Part shown: in pieces, positions 11,417 through 31,742 of the stretch
Layout: every line of letters begins with the position of its first letter
Position numbering within the stretch: the first letter of the stretch is position 1
Origin: Clostridiales bacterium
GTDB taxonomy: Bacteria > Bacillota > Clostridia > Saccharofermentanales > Saccharofermentanaceae
Length of the DNA: 64,000 nucleotides
Assembly (NCBI GenBank): GCA_017964005.1
Contig: JAGCSR010000032.1
Span: forward strand, 1-64,000
Direction of reading: 5' to 3'
Program-made: the position numbers and the translations under genes
Notes under the pieces: generated by a model
What the model was told of the DNA's origin: nothing
Seen by the model: only the letters and a program-made list of their open reading frames with translations
Databases searched by the model: none

Positions 11417-11568
11417 TTACGTTACTCCTGTTGCATTTTTGTTGATGATGCCATCTTATCACTCCGTGCCGCGAAAAACGGTTTTGGTGGCGAGTTGCGC
11501 TCCATCCGTGGCGAAATGCACGATCTTGTGATAATCTACAGCCATAATAACGAGTGAGGTATGCTGTG

Positions 11569-12894
11569 ATGAACAAAGGGATAAAGTGTTTGGCGAAGGT
11601 CCTGACAGTCGTTGTCATGCTGAGCAGTATCCCCGTATTCGGTAAAGCTGCGGCGGCCGATTCTGCGACAGGTTTTGCGGATGTCAGCGACACCTCCGCT
11701 TACTACTATAAGCCCGTTCAGTGGGCGGTAACCAACAACATCACCACAGGATATAAAGACGGTAATTTCAAGCCCGGCAATAAACTGACCCGCGCACAGA
11801 TGGTAACATTCATCTGGCGCATGCTGGGCAAACCCGAACCCAAGGTATCCGACAATCCCTTCTCTGACATTAAGAAGAGTGACTACTGGTACAAAGCCGC
11901 TCTCTGGGGCAACGAGAACCACATAGTGGAAGGCTACAAGGACGGCACTTTCGGTCCGCAGACCGTATGCGCCAGAAAGCACGCGGTCACTTTCCTTTGG
12001 AGACTTGCGGGAAAACCCGCCCCCAAGACTTCGGTCAACAGATTCTCCGATGTGAGTAGTTCCGATTACTACTACAAGGCAACTCTCTGGGCATCCGAAA
12101 AGAAGATCCTGGAAGGTTACAAAGACGGCACCTTCGGCCCCGATAAGGATTGCCTTCGAAAACATGCCGTGACGTTCCTCTACAAATACTCCAACTACAT
12201 GCAGTCCCCCGATGCTCACGAACACAAGTGGGAGCCGGTGTATGAAGATATAGAATATCAGGTAGCTGTTCAAACATATGCTGCAGATGGTACTACCAAC
12301 GATTATTCCAGACCAATCTACCGATGGGTGGTAAAGACTGATGAAGTGCCTGTTTATGAGAAGCATTTGTTTGATATAAATGGTCGAGATGCTACAAAAG
12401 CATGGGAAAATGGTGGCCGTGATGAATGGAAGGACAGTGGTAATTGGGATAACTACATTAGCGATACTCAAAATTTAAGAGATTGGCTCCGGGCAACTAT
12501 CGGATCCGGTTCAACTTTTTCTCAGGATGTTCAGGTCGGAACGAGGTTGGAATATCGTGAGGAATGTGAGCTTTCGGGGTATTCCAGAATGCCGTTATTG
12601 TTTCAGACAAAAAAGGAAAAGGTGCTTACTCATTATCTTTGTTCTTGTGGAGCACGTAAAAATCCTCCTGCCCAGTTTTATGTAATCACCGGAGTTGAAG
12701 TTGAAGTGCAATTTGAAGTAGATTATGATAACGATGGTTGTACTGAATGGATCACTGAGATTATCTACATTGAACAGACAGATTACAAGACACCTGGAGA
12801 GGAAACTTGTTACAAGATATTGGAAGCCATGGGTTATGATGTCTTGGGTATGGGAAACCGAAAGATTATACATGTATACGAGAAGCCTGAGTAA
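11569..12894 (+). CDS. Secreted SLH-repeat protein with unrecognised C-terminal domain
   Basis: The ATG at 11569 is preferred over an in-frame GTG at 11554 because GAGGT lies eight bases before it. The 441-residue product has a signal peptide (positively charged start, hydrophobic core, 'GKAAAADS' cleavage region), three SLH repeats over about residues 35-215, then a domain opening with an H-x-H-x-W pattern and containing a CSCG pair. The second half (from about 12235) is visibly richer in A and T than the SLH half and uses different codons, which suggests the domain was acquired separately. It probably decorates the cell wall; activity unknown. Confidence 0.85.
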   Translation: MNKGIKCLAKVLTVVVMLSSIPVFGKAAAADSATGFADVSDTSAYYYKPVQWAVTNNITTGYKDGNFKPGNKLTRAQMVTFIWRMLGKPEPKVSDNPFSDIKKSDYWYKAALWGNENHIVEGYKDGTFGPQTVCARKHAVTFLWRLAGKPAPKTSVNRFSDVSSSDYYYKATLWASEKKILEGYKDGTFGPDKDCLRKHAVTFLYKYSNYMQSPDAHEHKWEPVYEDIEYQVAVQTYAADGTTNDYSRPIYRWVVKTDEVPVYEKHLFDINGRDATKAWENGGRDEWKDSGNWDNYISDTQNLRDWLRATIGSGSTFSQDVQVGTRLEYREECELSGYSRMPLLFQTKKEKVLTHYLCSCGARKNPPAQFYVITGVEVEVQFEVDYDNDGCTEWITEIIYIEQTDYKTPGEETCYKILEAMGYDVLGMGNRKIIHVYEKPE

Positions 12895-15270: not shown

Positions 15271-17643
15271 ATGGCTAAATGGATCATGGTTGTGGATGAT
15301 GACATGGCTAATCTTCAGATGGCCGGCCGCATCCTTAGCAAGAATAATATGCGTGTTACTGCCCTCAAGTCCGGCAGGGCACTCATTGATTATATCTCCG
15401 ACAAGGGAACCCCGGATCTGATCCTTCTGGATATCAAGATGCCCGTCATGGACGGATTCGAGACACTGAAGCTCCTCCGCGAGACTGAAGAAGCCAAAGG
15501 CTTTGCCAAGACCCCCGTTATTTTCCTTACTGCAGACGAAGACACTGACACCGAGACCCGCGGTTTTGAGGTGGGCGTGTCCGATTTTATCCGTAAGCCC
15601 TTCAATCCCGAAGTCCTGATGCGAAGGATAGAGAACTCCGTATCCCATTCGGAGGAGGTCCAGACCCTCAAGAGCGAAGCGACCACCGATAAGCTTACGG
15701 GTTTTCTTAATAAGGCAGCCACGACTACGGAGCTTTCCAAGACATGCACATCCGAATCCGGGTGCCTTATGATGATCGACCTGGATTCATTCAAACTGGT
15801 AAACGATATTTACGGCCACGAGATGGGTGATAAAGTCCTGATATCGTTTGCGAACATAATAAGAGAAGTGGTTCCCGAAGGAAGTAAGTGCGGAAGGATC
15901 GGCGGCGATGAGTTTGTATCGTTTGCCAAAGCAGTCAGGACGGAAGATAAAGTCTCCGAGATGACTGAACTTCTTAATACCAAGCTCGTAGCTTCCGCCA
16001 AAGAGATGATGGGAGAAGACATGCAGATCCCTCTGGGCGCGTCCGTAGGCGCGGTCTTCGTCCCCAGGCACGGCAACGATTACCACTCGCTCTTAAAACT
16101 TGCGGATAAGAGCCTTTACTCCGTTAAGAAGAACGGCAAGCACGGATATAATCTCTACAGTTCTGATTCGCTTTCCGATGATCAGAATTCGGAAGCTGAC
16201 ATCAAGCAGCTGTCAGAGATCCTCGGGGAACGTTCGGTTCCCAATGTGGCGCTCCAGCTAGACAGGGAAGCCTTCGCTTCGGTCTACAGGTACGTTATCC
16301 GTTACCTCATCAGGAACGGCATGAGCGCCTGCAAGATCCTGTTCACTCTGTCTTCTGCACAGGCAGACTGTTCCGAGGAAAGCTTCGCGGAAGCTGCCGA
16401 TGAGTTCGGCAACCACATAAGGCAGTCGCTGCGTAAATCCGATATCCTCATGAGGAATCGGAAGGACCAGTATTTCGTCTTCCTTACGGATATCGCCGAA
16501 GATTATGTTGACAAGGTCATACACCATATCACCGATACATGGGAAGATATGAATCCCGGCAAGATCGACATATCCTACGAGACCGAGATCGTAACGAACG
16601 ACAAGTTTTCGCGGCATAAGACCGGTTCATCCCAAAGACAGATCTTCATAGTCGACGATGACAGCATGAATCTTACTATAGCAGGGAAGATACTGACGAC
16701 CGCCGGGATGAAGGTTACGCCATTCAAGTCCGGACAGGCTCTGCTCGATCATCTCGATAACGATCACGACTATCCGGATCTTATCCTTCTCGACGTGATG
16801 ATGCCGGAGATTGACGGGTTTGAGACTCTCAAGAGGCTTCGTGCCAAGGAGGGTCAGATCGCATCCCTTCCTGTAGTCTTTCTTACCGCGGCGGAAGGAG
16901 AAGGCGTCGAGACCCGGGGACTGTCTTTGGGAGCTATGGATTTCATCAGGAAACCCTTTATCCCCGAAGTCCTTCGTATCAGGGTCAGGAACATAACGGA
17001 ACTCCTGACGCTCCAAAGGGAACTTCGGAGCGAGGTGGAGATCAAGACCCGGCAGAACAAGTCGCTCATGGTTAACGTCGTCCAGTCCCTAGCCAAAGCC
17101 ATAGATGCCAAGGATATGTACACCAAGGGCCATTCCAGCAGGGTGGCCGAGTATTCAAGGCAGATAGCAAGGAAGGCCGGTCTGTCTGAAGAAGAGCAGG
17201 ATCAGATCTACATGACAGGACTTATGCATGACATTGGCAAGATCGGGATCCCGGGCAATGTCCTCAACAAGCCGGGGCAGCTTACGGATGAAGAGTTCGA
17301 TCTTATCAAGACCCATTCAACCGTAGGGTTCACCATTCTCGAAAATATAAGTGAAGCACCGTATCTTGCAGAGGTAGCTAAATACCACCACGAAAGATAC
17401 GACGGCACGGGTTACCCCGGGGGGCTGTCAGGAGAGGACATCCCTTTGTTCGCCCGAATAGTTTCCGTTGCGGACGCTTATGATGCTATGTCCTCTGCCA
17501 GAAGTTACAGGAATATGCTTGCTAAAGAAGATATCATTGAGGAATTCGAAAAGAATAAGGGCAGACAATTTGACCCGCGTTTTGCGGATATAATGCTTTC
17601 GATCCTTAGAGACGATCACGGCTTCGGTCCGAAGGAGAATTGA
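15271..17643 (+). CDS. REC-GGDEF-degenerate GGDEF-REC-HD-GYP cyclic-di-GMP signalling protein
   Basis: A 790-residue cytosolic protein. Receiver 1 covers about residues 1-125 (phospho-acceptor D54), followed by a GGDEF domain with intact G211-G-D-E-F215, a second GGDEF-like region (300-450) in which the active-site motif is replaced by 'RKDQYF', receiver 2 (456-575, D508), and an HD-GYP domain (610-790) with H653-D654 and the HHERYDGTGYP motif. GGDEF makes and HD-GYP degrades cyclic di-GMP, so the protein could do both under phosphorelay control. The two receivers resemble each other closely, suggesting internal duplication. It is first in an operon with two hybrid kinases. Confidence 0.92.
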   Translation: MAKWIMVVDDDMANLQMAGRILSKNNMRVTALKSGRALIDYISDKGTPDLILLDIKMPVMDGFETLKLLRETEEAKGFAKTPVIFLTADEDTDTETRGFEVGVSDFIRKPFNPEVLMRRIENSVSHSEEVQTLKSEATTDKLTGFLNKAATTTELSKTCTSESGCLMMIDLDSFKLVNDIYGHEMGDKVLISFANIIREVVPEGSKCGRIGGDEFVSFAKAVRTEDKVSEMTELLNTKLVASAKEMMGEDMQIPLGASVGAVFVPRHGNDYHSLLKLADKSLYSVKKNGKHGYNLYSSDSLSDDQNSEADIKQLSEILGERSVPNVALQLDREAFASVYRYVIRYLIRNGMSACKILFTLSSAQADCSEESFAEAADEFGNHIRQSLRKSDILMRNRKDQYFVFLTDIAEDYVDKVIHHITDTWEDMNPGKIDISYETEIVTNDKFSRHKTGSSQRQIFIVDDDSMNLTIAGKILTTAGMKVTPFKSGQALLDHLDNDHDYPDLILLDVMMPEIDGFETLKRLRAKEGQIASLPVVFLTAAEGEGVETRGLSLGAMDFIRKPFIPEVLRIRVRNITELLTLQRELRSEVEIKTRQNKSLMVNVVQSLAKAIDAKDMYTKGHSSRVAEYSRQIARKAGLSEEEQDQIYMTGLMHDIGKIGIPGNVLNKPGQLTDEEFDLIKTHSTVGFTILENISEAPYLAEVAKYHHERYDGTGYPGGLSGEDIPLFARIVSVADAYDAMSSARSYRNMLAKEDIIEEFEKNKGRQFDPRFADIMLSILRDDHGFGPKEN

Positions 17644-17644
17644 T

Positions 17645-20185
17645 ATGCCGAGAAGTACCGACAGTTCAGACCTTTTCAAATCTTCGCACCTGATGCTCCT
17701 GGTGAGCTTTACGATCTTTGCCACAGTGCTGGTCGTAGAGACACTCCTCATGGGATGGGAGTCGTGGGTAATAATCCCGATCGCCGCCGGCATCCTGGTA
17801 TCCTGGATCATTCACTTCAGACAGTCCGTGCCTTATCAGGCAAGCGTTGCCATATATGCCGGAATGATGATGTGTTTCTTCTTCTTCTATGGCACACATT
17901 TGACCAGCACCTTCGATCTTGCGGTCGTCATGTCCGCGCTGATCGTCCTCTGCACCATGACCGGAATCAAGAAACTGGTTACATTCTGTCAGATCACATA
18001 CTATATCACCATGGCTTACAGCATCTGTATGATGATCATAGCAGGAGAGACATTCGATGTTCTGGTGATAAGCCGTACCGTAATGCATCTGGGAATGATC
18101 TTCATGATCGGCTGGCTTGCCAAGTCCATCATCGACAGATGGCTGAATGTTCTGAACGAATCCAAGGATGAGGTCGAACAGCTTAAGGATGCCACCGACA
18201 GGCTCAACGACTTCCTTGCCAATGTATCTCATGAGATCAGGACTCCGGTAAATGCGATCATCGGTCTTACCGGTATCTGCATCGATAAGACGGAAGACCG
18301 TGATGTCAGGGCGGATATGATCGCCGTAAGGACTGCGGGCCGTAAGGTTGCCGAGCAGATCAGCGACATCCTCGATTACTCGGAGATAGACCGTAAAAAA
18401 GCCGTAAGCAACAACGAGGACTACATGCTTTCTTCAGTCCTTCACGACCTTGTGTCCGAGATCAAGGAATATAAGTCCAAAGAAGTCGAGCTTATCATCG
18501 ATGTCGATCCTTCTATCCCTGCAGTTATGAACACGGATGTATCCAAGCTTAAGAAGATCCTGAAGGCCCTTATCTCCAACGGTCTCAAATACACCCATAA
18601 GGGCGGCGTATATGTAAGGATCTCTGCCGAACCCCACGAATACGGGGTGAATCTGTGCATCGAGGTTACGGATACGGGTATCGGCATGAGCGAATACGAG
18701 ATGGAGAGAGTCTATGAGAGCTTCTACCAGGCGGATTCCAGCCGTACCAGAATGGGCGGCGGCTTGGGCTTAGGTCTTGCGATAGTCTCAGGATTCGTAT
18801 CCCTCCTGGGCGGATTCATGACGATAAGGAGTAAGGAGGATGTGGGCACCACCGTTAATGTCAGCATCCCTCAGAAGGTAATAGATCCTGCCAGCTGCAT
18901 GTCTGTTTCCAATCCCGACAATCTGGTAATTGGCGCTTACCTTAACTTCGATAAGTACTCCAATCCTCAGGTCCGTGATTACTATAATTCCATGGTCCTC
19001 AATATCGTCAAGGGTCTCGGAGTCAAGATGCACCGCGTCAACAATTCCGATAATCTCAGGCTCCTTCATGAGTCCGTGCACATGACCCATCTGTTCGTTG
19101 CGGAAGAAGAATATATGTCCTCCATAGAACTCATGGAGGAACTTGCCAAAGATATCATCGTTGTCGTTGTAGCATACGACGATATAGTATTGCCTGCGAC
19201 CTCCAGGGTCAGGGTAATGGCCAAGCCCTTCTACTGCTTCCCGGTAGTATCCGTTCTCAATTCCAATCTGACGGATATCGTCAGGACCGAGAAGAAGATG
19301 TACTGCAGGAATGTCCGTGCTCTTGTCGTAGATGATGAGATGATGAACCTCGTGGTTGCCAAGAGTATCTTTAACAGATACGGCATGATCGTAACTACGG
19401 CCATATCCGGTCAGGAGTCCATTGACAGGACCAGGGAACAGGTTTTCGATATCATATTCATGGACCACATGATGAGCGGAATGGACGGCGTTGAAGCCAT
19501 GAAGAGGATAAGGACGGATGTTACGGGCCTCAACAGTGCGACGCCGGTCGTAGCTCTTACTGCTAATGCGATGAGCTCCGCCAAGCAGATGTTCCTCAAT
19601 GAAGGCTTCGACGGGTTCGTCAGCAAGCCTATCGAGATCGAAGAACTGGAGAGGGTCATGAAGCAGGTGCTTCCCAAGTCCGCGGTATCTTTCGAGACTG
19701 AAGACGGTCAGACGAAGGATGAGGAAGCGAAGGACAGCCCCAACGACGGTCCCGTCGATATCATCAAGCTCCATCAGACTCTCAAGGAATACGGTGTCGA
19801 TACTGATTCCGGAATGAGATACTGCATGGGAGACAAGGAATTCTATAAGACTTTGCTCGTTCAGTTTGCGACCGAATCCGTTGAGAAGGCTGAAGCAATA
19901 AGATCTTATTACAAGTCAGGGGACTGGCATAATTATGAGATACAGGTACACGCTCTGAAGAGCACCGCCAAGATGATCGGCGCGAACGAACTGTCCGAGA
20001 TGGCTAAAGGATCGGAACTTGCCGCCAAGGAGGAGAGGGAAGATTATATTATCGATCATCACGATAATCTTATGAAGCTCTACGATAAGACGACAAAGGC
20101 TATCCGCGATATATACGGTGTCAAGGGGGATGACGCCAAGGATGATGAAGTCCTTGAATTTGTTCCGGGAGGTGATATGGAATGA
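17645..20185 (+). CDS. Hybrid sensor histidine kinase with receiver and HPt domains
   Basis: An 846-residue protein starting two bases after the previous stop (AAGGAG RBS). Five or so membrane segments fill residues 10-165 without a large sensor loop. HisKA follows with H196 in SHEIRTP, then an HATPase domain with GGGLGLGLAIV, a ~140-residue region that looks like a receiver lacking its aspartate, a functional receiver (D607 in 'IFMDHMM'), and a C-terminal HPt with H769 in VHALKSTAK. This supports a multi-step phosphorelay, likely passing phosphate to the receivers of the cyclic-di-GMP protein encoded before it. The four-base ATGA overlap couples it to the next gene. Confidence 0.92.
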   Translation: MPRSTDSSDLFKSSHLMLLVSFTIFATVLVVETLLMGWESWVIIPIAAGILVSWIIHFRQSVPYQASVAIYAGMMMCFFFFYGTHLTSTFDLAVVMSALIVLCTMTGIKKLVTFCQITYYITMAYSICMMIIAGETFDVLVISRTVMHLGMIFMIGWLAKSIIDRWLNVLNESKDEVEQLKDATDRLNDFLANVSHEIRTPVNAIIGLTGICIDKTEDRDVRADMIAVRTAGRKVAEQISDILDYSEIDRKKAVSNNEDYMLSSVLHDLVSEIKEYKSKEVELIIDVDPSIPAVMNTDVSKLKKILKALISNGLKYTHKGGVYVRISAEPHEYGVNLCIEVTDTGIGMSEYEMERVYESFYQADSSRTRMGGGLGLGLAIVSGFVSLLGGFMTIRSKEDVGTTVNVSIPQKVIDPASCMSVSNPDNLVIGAYLNFDKYSNPQVRDYYNSMVLNIVKGLGVKMHRVNNSDNLRLLHESVHMTHLFVAEEEYMSSIELMEELAKDIIVVVVAYDDIVLPATSRVRVMAKPFYCFPVVSVLNSNLTDIVRTEKKMYCRNVRALVVDDEMMNLVVAKSIFNRYGMIVTTAISGQESIDRTREQVFDIIFMDHMMSGMDGVEAMKRIRTDVTGLNSATPVVALTANAMSSAKQMFLNEGFDGFVSKPIEIEELERVMKQVLPKSAVSFETEDGQTKDEEAKDSPNDGPVDIIKLHQTLKEYGVDTDSGMRYCMGDKEFYKTLLVQFATESVEKAEAIRSYYKSGDWHNYEIQVHALKSTAKMIGANELSEMAKGSELAAKEEREDYIIDHHDNLMKLYDKTTKAIRDIYGVKGDDAKDDEVLEFVPGGDME

Positions 20186-22905
20186 GAGACGTATTAAGCT
20201 ACATCTTCAATCCCCAAAAGATCGATCCCGAAGCTTCCAAGTCCGCATATAAGAGTTCGGTCAAACCTACTTACGTGATGCTTACGATGACCATCATTGT
20301 CGTAACCTTATTCATTATCGCGACATTCGTTTACAAGAGCATATTCCTTAACTCGCTCTACTATCACAGGACCTCTTATATCGTGATCCTGGCATTGAGT
20401 GTTATCTGGCTTATTATCGCCAGATTCGTTCACAGGGACTACGACAACAGGTACAAGATCATGTATTTCCTTAATGCGGCACTGGGCATCATCATGTTCG
20501 CGTGGGTCATTACTTTGTTCGCTTTTGATGTGTTCCTTAACGGAGAAGCGAGCACGATCCTGTTTATGACCATGTCACTGCTCGTTCCGCTCCTTGTCTA
20601 TATGAGTCCTCTGCAGTATCTGATCATCGCGATGTCCGCGAATGTCGCCATGATCGTGATTCTCAGGAGTGCCATTATGATAGGCGAGACGACCAACAGA
20701 GATCTGATCAACTTCGCGGTGTTCTCCATATTCCAGGTCGTAATGGGGATCGTCATGCTCTATACAAGGTACAGTCTGCACAAAGAGATCGTTACCGAGA
20801 CCCGTCAGAACCAGGAGATCGAGAATCTCATCAGGTCGCAGAACAGTTTCTTCTCCAACATGAGCCATGAGATCAGGACTCCGATCAACACCATCATCGG
20901 ATTGAACGAGATGATCTTAAGAGAAGACGTCAGCGATGAGGTTACCGAGGATGCCGCCAACATAAAGGCTGCAGGTAAGCTCCTCCTGAATCTCATAAAC
21001 GATATTCTGGATATGAGCAAGTTCCAGTCAGGCAATATGGACTTGCTCAAGGCGCCTTACCATACGGGAGATATGCTTTCCGATATCGTAGGAATGCTGT
21101 GGATCAGAGCCAAAGAGAAGAAACTGGAATTCCATGTAGATGTATCCCCGGATGTTCCTGCGGAACTTGAAGGCGACGAAGTCCGCATCAAGCAGATCCT
21201 CATCAATGTTATCAACAACGCCATTAAGTACACCAAGGAAGGATCGGTCTCGCTGTCAGTTCAGTGTGAGATGAGGGAAGATAAGATCTGCAACATGATC
21301 TATACCGTTACCGACACGGGAATCGGCATCAAGACAGAAGATATACCTTATCTGTTCTCGGCCTTCAAGAGAGTCGACGAGAACGCCAACAAGCACATTG
21401 AAGGAACCGGTCTGGGCCTGTCCATAGTAAAGCAGCTTATTGACCTCATGGGCGGTAAGATCACTGTCAACAGTGTTTATACCAAAGGTTCCACATTCAT
21501 CATCGAGATCCCCCAGAAGATCGAAGGCCAGGGCGTCGTGGGTGAATATGATTTCGAGAAGACGAAGACCATCGGACACGTTGCGGATTACACTCCCAAG
21601 TTCGAAGCCCCGGAAGCAAGGGTGCTCGTTGTGGATGACAACGAATCCAATCTTCTTGTTGTATCCAAACTCTTAAGGGACACCAAGATCAAGATCGACA
21701 CGGTGACCAGCGGCGAAGAGGCTCTGCGCAAGACCCTTAATATCAAGTACGATGTTATCTTCATGGATCACCTGATGCCTAAGATGGACGGTATCGAATG
21801 CAGAAGGCGCATAATCGATCAGACGGGAGGAAGGTCGAGAGAATCCAAGATCGTTATCCTCACGGCAAATGCAGATGAAGAGAACAGGGAACTTTACGCA
21901 AGGGAAAGATTCGACGGGTATCTTACAAAACCCGTGTCAGGCGACGACCTCGAAAACGAACTTTATAAACTTCTTCCCAAAGAGCTGGTCCACATTACCG
22001 GCAACAGAAATGAGATCGCTGAAGAGACGATCTCATGGATGAATGCCGGAAGAAAGAGGAAGAGAGTCGTAATCACTACCGAGAGTGTTGCCGATCTTCC
22101 TCAGGAGATCTGCGAAAAATACGATATCGCAATCCTTCCCCATAAGGTAAACACTGCAGAGGGAACCTTCATGGACGGCAAGGAGGTTGATACTGCAGGT
22201 GTTATCAAGTATATGGAAGACGAGACAAGGACTGTTATGCCGCTTGCTCCTGATGTTCGCGAGACCGAGGAATTCTTTGCAAAACAGCTGACATCGGCCA
22301 ACAATGTTATCCATATCTCCATCTCGTCCAAACTCGAGAACAGCGGATGTCCCACTGCGATCGAGGCATCGAAGTCCTTCGACAGTGTTATCGTTTTCGA
22401 TTCGTCACACTTATCCAGCGGTCAGGGGATCCTTGTTATCGAGGCCTGCAAGATGGCTGAAGAAGGCAAGACCCCCGAGGAGATCATCGCGGCTCTTGAG
22501 ATCCTGAAGAAGAAAGTCCACACATCGTTTATCGTTGATAATCTTGACTTCCTTGCAAGATCCAAGCAGGTCGGACAGGGGATCGCCAATATCGTCAAAT
22601 CCCTGATGGGAAGACCTGTCCTTGAACTCAAGAAAGGTAAGATGGGAGTAGGAAAGATCTACTTCGGTTCAAGGCAGCACGCATGGAAGAAATATATCGA
22701 TTCCACTTTGACTTCTTTCGGAAGGATAGACAAAAAGGTGCTCTTCGTAACTTATGTCGGTATCAACAAGAAGGAGATGGATTGGATCAGGGCACAGATA
22801 GAGAAGAAAGCCGAGTTCGAGCACATCTACTTTGTTCAGGCAAGTCCTGCCATCGCCGTAAACTGCGGTCCCGGAACCTTCGGTCTGCTTCTTAAGGAAG
22901 TGTGA
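20182..22905 (+). CDS. Hybrid histidine kinase fused to a DegV/FakB-type fatty-acid-binding domain
   Basis: A 907-residue protein. Membrane segments occupy about residues 30-205. HisKA has H229 in SHEIRTP; the HATPase includes 'NVINNAIKYT' and GTGLGLSIVK; the receiver has D529 in 'IFMDHLMP'. From about residue 628 to the end lies a full-length DegV domain: an opening TTESVADLP (DegV 'TDSxADLP'), an 'ISSKLENSG' segment in place of the usual SS-LSGT, 'DSSHLSSGQG', a 'LDFLARSKQVG' segment and the terminal 'GPGTFGLL'. DegV proteins bind fatty acids and, as FakB, present them to fatty-acid kinase. The fusion suggests a kinase tuned by lipid or acyl supply. No HPt is present; the neighbour's may serve both. 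Confidence 0.9.
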   Translation: MRDVLSYIFNPQKIDPEASKSAYKSSVKPTYVMLTMTIIVVTLFIIATFVYKSIFLNSLYYHRTSYIVILALSVIWLIIARFVHRDYDNRYKIMYFLNAALGIIMFAWVITLFAFDVFLNGEASTILFMTMSLLVPLLVYMSPLQYLIIAMSANVAMIVILRSAIMIGETTNRDLINFAVFSIFQVVMGIVMLYTRYSLHKEIVTETRQNQEIENLIRSQNSFFSNMSHEIRTPINTIIGLNEMILREDVSDEVTEDAANIKAAGKLLLNLINDILDMSKFQSGNMDLLKAPYHTGDMLSDIVGMLWIRAKEKKLEFHVDVSPDVPAELEGDEVRIKQILINVINNAIKYTKEGSVSLSVQCEMREDKICNMIYTVTDTGIGIKTEDIPYLFSAFKRVDENANKHIEGTGLGLSIVKQLIDLMGGKITVNSVYTKGSTFIIEIPQKIEGQGVVGEYDFEKTKTIGHVADYTPKFEAPEARVLVVDDNESNLLVVSKLLRDTKIKIDTVTSGEEALRKTLNIKYDVIFMDHLMPKMDGIECRRRIIDQTGGRSRESKIVILTANADEENRELYARERFDGYLTKPVSGDDLENELYKLLPKELVHITGNRNEIAEETISWMNAGRKRKRVVITTESVADLPQEICEKYDIAILPHKVNTAEGTFMDGKEVDTAGVIKYMEDETRTVMPLAPDVRETEEFFAKQLTSANNVIHISISSKLENSGCPTAIEASKSFDSVIVFDSSHLSSGQGILVIEACKMAEEGKTPEEIIAALEILKKKVHTSFIVDNLDFLARSKQVGQGIANIVKSLMGRPVLELKKGKMGVGKIYFGSRQHAWKKYIDSTLTSFGRIDKKVLFVTYVGINKKEMDWIRAQIEKKAEFEHIYFVQASPAIAVNCGPGTFGLLLKEV

Positions 22906-31346: not shown

Positions 31347-31742
31347 ATGGCTGATGATCTTAATATCGATATCTCTTCGATCTTCGGGGACACCATCGAC
31401 ACTATCTCTGATTTTCTGACGGGTGACAGCAAGAAGAATACCAAGAAAACCGCTGCCGCCAAGAAGACATCCACCGCTAAGAAGACAACTACTGCCAAGA
31501 AGACTTCTACGGCTAAGAAGACGACAACAACCAAGAAGACTTCCACTGCAAAGAAATCCACGACGACCAAGAAGACCACATCTTCTAAGAGTAAGAAGAT
31601 CATCTTCGAGATCGGCGGCAGGCAGATCGACATGAAGACCATCGAGAAGAAGGCCGCAAAACTTTCGGGCGATGTCTATGTCGTTGCCAATGAACGTAAG
31701 ATCTACGACAGCGAAGGCAATTCCATTAACCTGTTCGGGTGA
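31347..31742 (+). CDS. DUF6465-family protein with Lys/Thr-rich hexapeptide repeats
   Basis: A 131-residue protein with three parts: an acidic N-terminus (about 30 residues), seven near-identical six-residue repeats of KKTSTA/KKTTTA type (18-bp DNA repeats) at about residues 35-77, and a C-terminal domain 'KIIFEIGGRQIDMKTIEKKA' to 'NSINLF' that I recognise as DUF6465. The repeats resemble the tails of histone-H1-like nucleoid proteins, so nucleic-acid or polyanion contact is possible. The start has GGGGAGG. Confidence 0.82.
   Translation: MADDLNIDISSIFGDTIDTISDFLTGDSKKNTKKTAAAKKTSTAKKTTTAKKTSTAKKTTTTKKTSTAKKSTTTKKTTSSKSKKIIFEIGGRQIDMKTIEKKAAKLSGDVYVVANERKIYDSEGNSINLFG

Follow-up and report, generated by a model that had tools for sequence, protein, structure and literature searches.

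A DegV-bearing hybrid histidine kinase from a recurring two-kinase signalling operon of Clostridia

The window analysed here, a stretch of 64,000 nucleotides from a Clostridiales bacterium, encodes a hybrid histidine kinase that ends in a DegV domain, the fold of the FakB fatty-acid-binding proteins. This raises two questions: whether the fusion is real, and what such a domain does in a signalling kinase. A sequence-only reading had described one uninterrupted frame with membrane region, HisKA, HATPase, receiver and DegV domains, and Pfam searches and hydropathy bore out its coordinates, its domains and the phospho-acceptor positions H229 and D529 (Table 1). Within residues 620–907, where that reading had looked for DegV, the match to PF02645 spanned positions 2–277 of the 280 in the profile and scored 149 bits (cut-off 27); TIGR00762 (DegV domain) matched as well, at 166 bits (cut-off 99.7). 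The kinase part has the phospho-acceptor His, the N, G1 and G2 boxes and the receiver Asp and Lys of a hybrid histidine kinase. Across 81 aligned full-length fusions, H229, E230, N346, D378, G380, G408, G410, D485, D529 and K583, the G1 and G2 glycines among them, were essentially invariant. The transmembrane region was poorly conserved among fusions (median 9% to the window).

Table 1. Coordinates of the DegV kinase, its domains and the two genes upstream (positions in the window)
Feature	Position	Strand	Details
Response regulator	15271..17643	+	790 aa; REC, GGDEF (motif intact), degenerate GGDEF-like segment (recognised by eye), REC, HD-GYP (motifs intact)
Partner hybrid kinase HHK2	17645..20185	+	846 aa; TM, HisKA (H196), HATPase, pseudoreceiver, REC (D607), Hpt (H769)
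Hybrid histidine kinase fused to DegV	20182..22905	+	907 aa; TM, HisKA, HATPase, REC, DegV
Six predicted TM helices, residues 32–193	20275..20760	+	Hydropathy; without extracellular domain
HisKA, residues 220–284, phospho-acceptor H229	20839..21033	+	Pfam, 8.7e-17
HATPase_c, residues 331–446	21172..21519	+	Pfam, 4e-27; N, G1 and G2 boxes invariant among fusions
Receiver (Response_reg), residues 481–593, phospho-acceptor D529	21622..21960	+	Pfam, 2.3e-21
DegV domain, residues 629–904	22066..22893	+	PF02645, 1.8e-43; AlphaFold model

The fusion recurs widely. In the window's own family (f1), DegV lies in open frames of 876–958 aa in 64 of 115 genomes, from two of five genera, and a second family (f29; 397 genomes) holds 95 fused DegV frames, counted as DegV matches in frames longer than 400 aa, with up to five per genome. 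About 120 relatives were compared, and the distribution rests on sampled genome sets; a contig scan with the window DegV alone as query returned only five loci. These (L034–L038) are in metagenome-assembled genomes (MAGs) labelled Clostridiales or Lachnospiraceae, partly from rumen or omasum. The most distant of them, the Lachnospiraceae locus L038 (45–46% identity), has the fusion as well; since it groups with f29 sequences, that family is probably Lachnospiraceae. The presence of the same frame on separate contigs of the f1 genomes and in independent MAGs rules out an assembly join or frameshift, and recurrence in two families rules out a chance or one-off event. The fusion is therefore confirmed as real, and its DegV domain as complete.

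A phylum-wide sample of 398 genomes held no fusions outside f1 and f29, the other matches being stand-alone DegVs. One long frame (G221, 580 aa) was rejected as a fusion, its extra part being an upstream open frame without domain matches. In a tree of 118 rows, f29 sequences surround the window copy, and the f1 copies were therefore probably acquired by horizontal transfer. A few fused copies appear damaged (L232 in G894; L103 in G010; G023:C3:126779-127150), their DegV being interrupted by a stop or split internally, or only a fragment remaining.

Genomic context places the kinase in an operon. In the window, the 790-aa c-di-GMP regulator, HHK2 and the DegV kinase follow one another with gaps of a few bases, the DegV kinase start codon overlapping the HHK2 stop codon (ATGA), and this order recurs in nearly all relatives. 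Among 75 DegV kinases with readable upstream DNA, 73 had HHK2 as direct upstream neighbour on the same strand, and a pseudoreceiver segment was present in 73 of the 75 upstream kinases. In the reverse direction, 103 HHK2 genes of f29, found through the pseudoreceiver, were checked for DegV within 6.5 kb; 89 had one, although in one case this was only the DegV of another pair. The other 14 comprised one with a weak-scoring DegV kinase (L240), seven at a contig end, two that were not read and four without DegV (L239, L243, L244 and L245), these four being the lowest-scoring relatives apart from two histidine kinase–pseudoreceiver–DegV genes. A c-di-GMP gene (GGDEF and/or HD-GYP) lay upstream in 46 of 61 loci, and the remaining loci had a receiver by itself. 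Roughly one operon in four shows just this lone receiver and lacks a c-di-GMP domain in its vicinity, which is a point against a c-di-GMP relay. A full His-Asp-His-Asp set is encoded together, as expected of a multistep phosphorelay with c-di-GMP output, and the operon strongly supports the earlier guess that the kinase feeds such a relay. The single-protein view behind that guess was right about the fusion and missed that the family is widespread, that its architectures are rearranged and that the two adjacent hybrid kinases form one unit. The DegV kinase is part of a two-kinase signalling operon that recurs among relatives, has apparently not been described before and usually leads to c-di-GMP enzymes, and this setting matters more than the DegV fusion itself.

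Elsewhere in the window are a 446-aa protein with three S-layer homology domains (11554-12894, +) and a 131-aa protein with a lysine/threonine/alanine-rich repeat (TAKKTSTAKKT...; 31347-31742, +), like histone H1-type or nucleoid proteins.

Exactly one Hpt was found in 73 of 75 readable pairs, on HHK2 in 57 and at the end of the DegV kinase in 16, and in those 16 HHK2 is shortened to about 690 aa. No complete pair among the 75 had two Hpts; the exceptions to the rule are L115, where a contig end truncates the pair, and L105, where the pair is the second of two tandem copies. Because the Hpt distribution is mutually exclusive between partners, there is strong evolutionary evidence that both kinases would share a single phosphotransfer step, and the rule points to two hybrid kinases evolving as one phosphorelay. 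At the duplicated locus (L105:6754-12143, -), two Hpt-bearing hybrid kinases flank a tandem of distinct DegV kinases, 889 and 896 aa long.

The feature that stays constant is DegV, and the way in which it is attached varies. It is C-terminal in 100 of 119 relatives, precedes an Hpt or other extension in 17 and stands at the N-terminus of a membrane kinase at three loci (L131, L115 and L230). At one locus DegV is split from its kinase (L224), and at four a separate DegV gene (287–319 aa) lies beside HHK2 without a second kinase (L225, L226, L227 and L249). Individual arrangements include a 1,582-aa protein with the order DegV, Cache region(s), HisKA, HATPase, REC and Hpt (L131:1811-6556, -); a 490-aa DegV-Hpt protein without kinase that adjoins an Hpt-less HHK2 and a REC-REC-HD-GYP gene (L231:4740-6209, -); and two single HHK2-type kinases whose C-terminal part is pseudoreceiver-DegV, both with a GGDEF protein encoded next (L250:3933-6560, +; L251:3781-6375, +).

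In a tree of 63 DegV domains, the 49 linked to the phosphorelay all share a single branch (100/100) that excludes FakB2, 2dt8 and the other stand-alone DegVs. At the base of this branch lie the four separate operonic DegV genes (89/85 and 84/73), followed by all fusions (100/99). The simplest history suggested by the tree, with a polarity that depends on rooting between the phosphorelay branch and ordinary DegVs, would be that a DegV gene joined the operon, was then fused to a second kinase and later underwent rearrangements.

We then compared the domain with its lipid-binding relatives. The earlier reading had proposed structure prediction as a check for an intact lipid pocket. The AlphaFold model (mean pLDDT 97.0) predicts the DegV fold to be intact, aligning over 265–278 residues, cap region included, with lipid-bound DegV/FakB structures (1pzx, Z 33.5; 2dt8, Z 33.4; FakB2 4x9x, Z 32.9; FakB1 5uto, Z 32.0) and scoring well below these against FakA_C and DhaK relatives (Z 14–16, FakA_C at 14). 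Profile and fold, both over the full length, place the domain in the DegV/FakB family. In FakB1 four residues (Thr62, Ser95, Ser171 and His270) hold the fatty-acid carboxylate in a site capped by Arg173 (PMC8892158); an R173A variant exchanges fatty acids normally and is inactive with FakA (PMC9136124, PMC8892158). The window residues at T62, S95, S171, R173 and H270 are P687, S715, S794, Q796 and N894, the alignment being less certain at T62 than at the other sites, and only Ser715 and Ser794 of the four-residue carboxylate network are kept.

These exchanges characterize the fused DegVs at large. The H270 position is Asn in 113 of 118 fused domains, compared with His in 41 and Asn in five of 54 stand-alone DegVs. 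At the R173 position, fused domains have Gln (57), Arg (29), Leu (11), Lys (9) or other residues, such that Arg or Lys is kept in 38 of 118, against 54 of 54 stand-alone DegVs, and lost in 80 including the window; Fisher tests on these contrasts are descriptive only, related sequences being counted as independent. Since the four basal operonic genes already carry Asn, the H270N exchange appears to go with the operon, and the loss of R173 appears to be later and not universal. The sequence-only reading had implied a FakB role in which the domain presents a fatty acid to FakA, and this part was not supported: Gln796 replaces Arg173, Asn894 replaces His270 and Pro687 replaces Thr62, and the FakA-like genes of the window's genome adjoin two stand-alone DegVs instead of the DegV kinase. 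Complete FakB function is rejected for the FakA step on the basis of the residues, Q796 standing at the Arg173 position. Each of the two stand-alone DegVs precedes its FakA-like gene (L001 and L002, contigs C12 and C30 of the same genome), forming two candidate fatty-acid-kinase-like pairs.

We propose, with a probability of roughly 0.55, that c-di-GMP turnover is controlled by a phosphorelay of two kinases in which this protein is the half that carries DegV, with DegV as an intracellular receptor for a fatty acid or another amphiphile that provides signal input. The domain would face the membrane, and its ligand state would alter the activity of the kinase pair (autokinase or phosphatase). 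Phosphoryl groups would pass from the receivers of both hybrid kinases to the single shared Hpt, on HHK2 in the window, and on to the receivers of the GGDEF/HD-GYP regulator, which would then make or destroy c-di-GMP. We infer DegV as the input, a lipid as the ligand and this direction of phosphoryl flow, the choice of a lipid following from the predicted fold.

Three arrangements speak for input rather than output: DegV ahead of a membrane kinase, DegV attached to an Hpt alone and DegV encoded by itself, in all of which there is no receiver to control it. A further reason is that the residues for catalysis with FakA, to our knowledge the only output of FakB, are gone in most fused DegVs. The four separate genes beside HHK2, which have no receiver, thus fit an input better than a phospho-controlled output. 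Judged by its residues, the domain is probably a lipid- or amphiphile-sensing input and not a fatty-acid-kinase subunit, and the H270N exchange suggests a ligand head group unlike that of ordinary FakB ligands. Against an input stands the placement of DegV mostly after the receiver, where output domains are usually located. Because two or three carboxylate-holding residues are replaced (T62P, H270N), the ligand may be something other than a fatty acid, or there may be none. The model shows no fixed REC–DegV interface, and no mechanical coupling is seen because the linker is disordered (model residues 150–158, pTM 0.65).

If DegV bound no ligand, it might be a mere protein-interaction scaffold pairing the two hybrid kinases. 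We regard this as unlikely: it would accommodate the altered carboxylate network, the nearly constant adjacency to HHK2 and the precedent of FakA_C, in which a related fold is kept without a tunnel (PMC9136124), but the window domain retains a complete FakB fold with cap region whose Z of about 32–33 is far above that of FakA_C, the uniform His-to-Asn exchange is unlike random decay, and the S95 position is Ser or Thr in 79 of 118 fused DegVs. Alternatively, the kinase could phosphorylate its own receiver to switch DegV between membrane-docked and free, or ligand-loaded and empty, states, the system thereby governing the capture or storage of fatty acids. We find such an output quite unlikely, given the frequent loss of the FakA-catalytic Arg, the position of the FakA-like genes elsewhere in the genome and the occurrence of DegV in the same operon ahead of a membrane kinase, on an Hpt or as a gene without receiver, even though its C-terminal place after REC resembles that of effector ends in other hybrid kinases and its fold and cap region are intact. 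It is very improbable that the fused DegV continues to act as an additional FakB for FakA, its link to the kinase having no regulatory meaning, since the window has Gln at R173 and Asn at H270 and the fusion is tied to a phosphorelay operon, despite the presence of FakA-like genes in the genome and the retention of Arg173 in about a quarter of fusions.

Returning to DegV as a signal input, a broader proposal has slightly less than an even chance of being correct: that a single recruitment brought in a FakB-fold protein, initially as its own gene and later as a fusion, to serve as receptor for a phosphorelay of two kinases and one Hpt. Gut Clostridia would thereby possess a direct intracellular receptor that links a lipid or other amphiphile to c-di-GMP, with a ligand class that would not be free fatty acids and is marked by the His270-to-Asn exchange. 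The DegV kinase probably lets these bacteria adjust c-di-GMP to a lipid-like molecule, and its soluble putative receptor domain offers a way into possible links between lipids and c-di-GMP in the abundant Clostridia of gut and rumen. Many of these bacteria have several DegV proteins. A whole DegV branch tied to signalling points to a second role for DegV and makes the question of what other DegV proteins bind directly testable.

The sequence-only reading cited no described example, and our search of open-licence papers for DegV linked to a histidine kinase, a hybrid kinase, GGDEF or two-component systems/Lachnospiraceae likewise found none. Hybrid kinases are known, as are Hpt relays and DegV proteins; a description of how they are systematically combined, of the one-Hpt rule or of the residue signature was not found in that literature. 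Database entries for DegV kinases are presumably labelled 'DegV family EDD domain-containing protein' or sensor kinases.

Compared with known systems, the window domain shares the full fold of DegV/FakB proteins (Staphylococcus aureus FakB1 and FakB2; PF02645, TIGR00762), with a Z of about 32 over 276 residues to FakB1 and equivalents of Ser95 and Ser171, but domains of this type are fused to or operonic with kinases, have Gln for R173 and Asn for H270 in the window, form their own branch and do not lie beside FakA. BarA, ArcB and TorS have the same TM-HisKA-HATPase-REC order, catalytic residues and multistep phosphorelay logic with Hpt, whereas the DegV kinase adds DegV, usually leaves Hpt to its partner and scores far below the BarA, TorS and ArcB cut-offs. 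DhaQ and DhaR-DhaK, in control of the dihydroxyacetone operon, likewise employ an EDD-fold relative of a metabolite-kinase subunit in regulation (2iu4, 4lrx; Z about 16), but act on transcription factors rather than histidine kinases and have another ligand class. In FakAB–SaeRS of S. aureus, fatty-acid status also influences a two-component kinase, the fatty-acid kinase acting in trans through the fatty-acid pool (PMC5539427), whereas in the window system a domain of FakB fold is built into the kinase or encoded in its operon.
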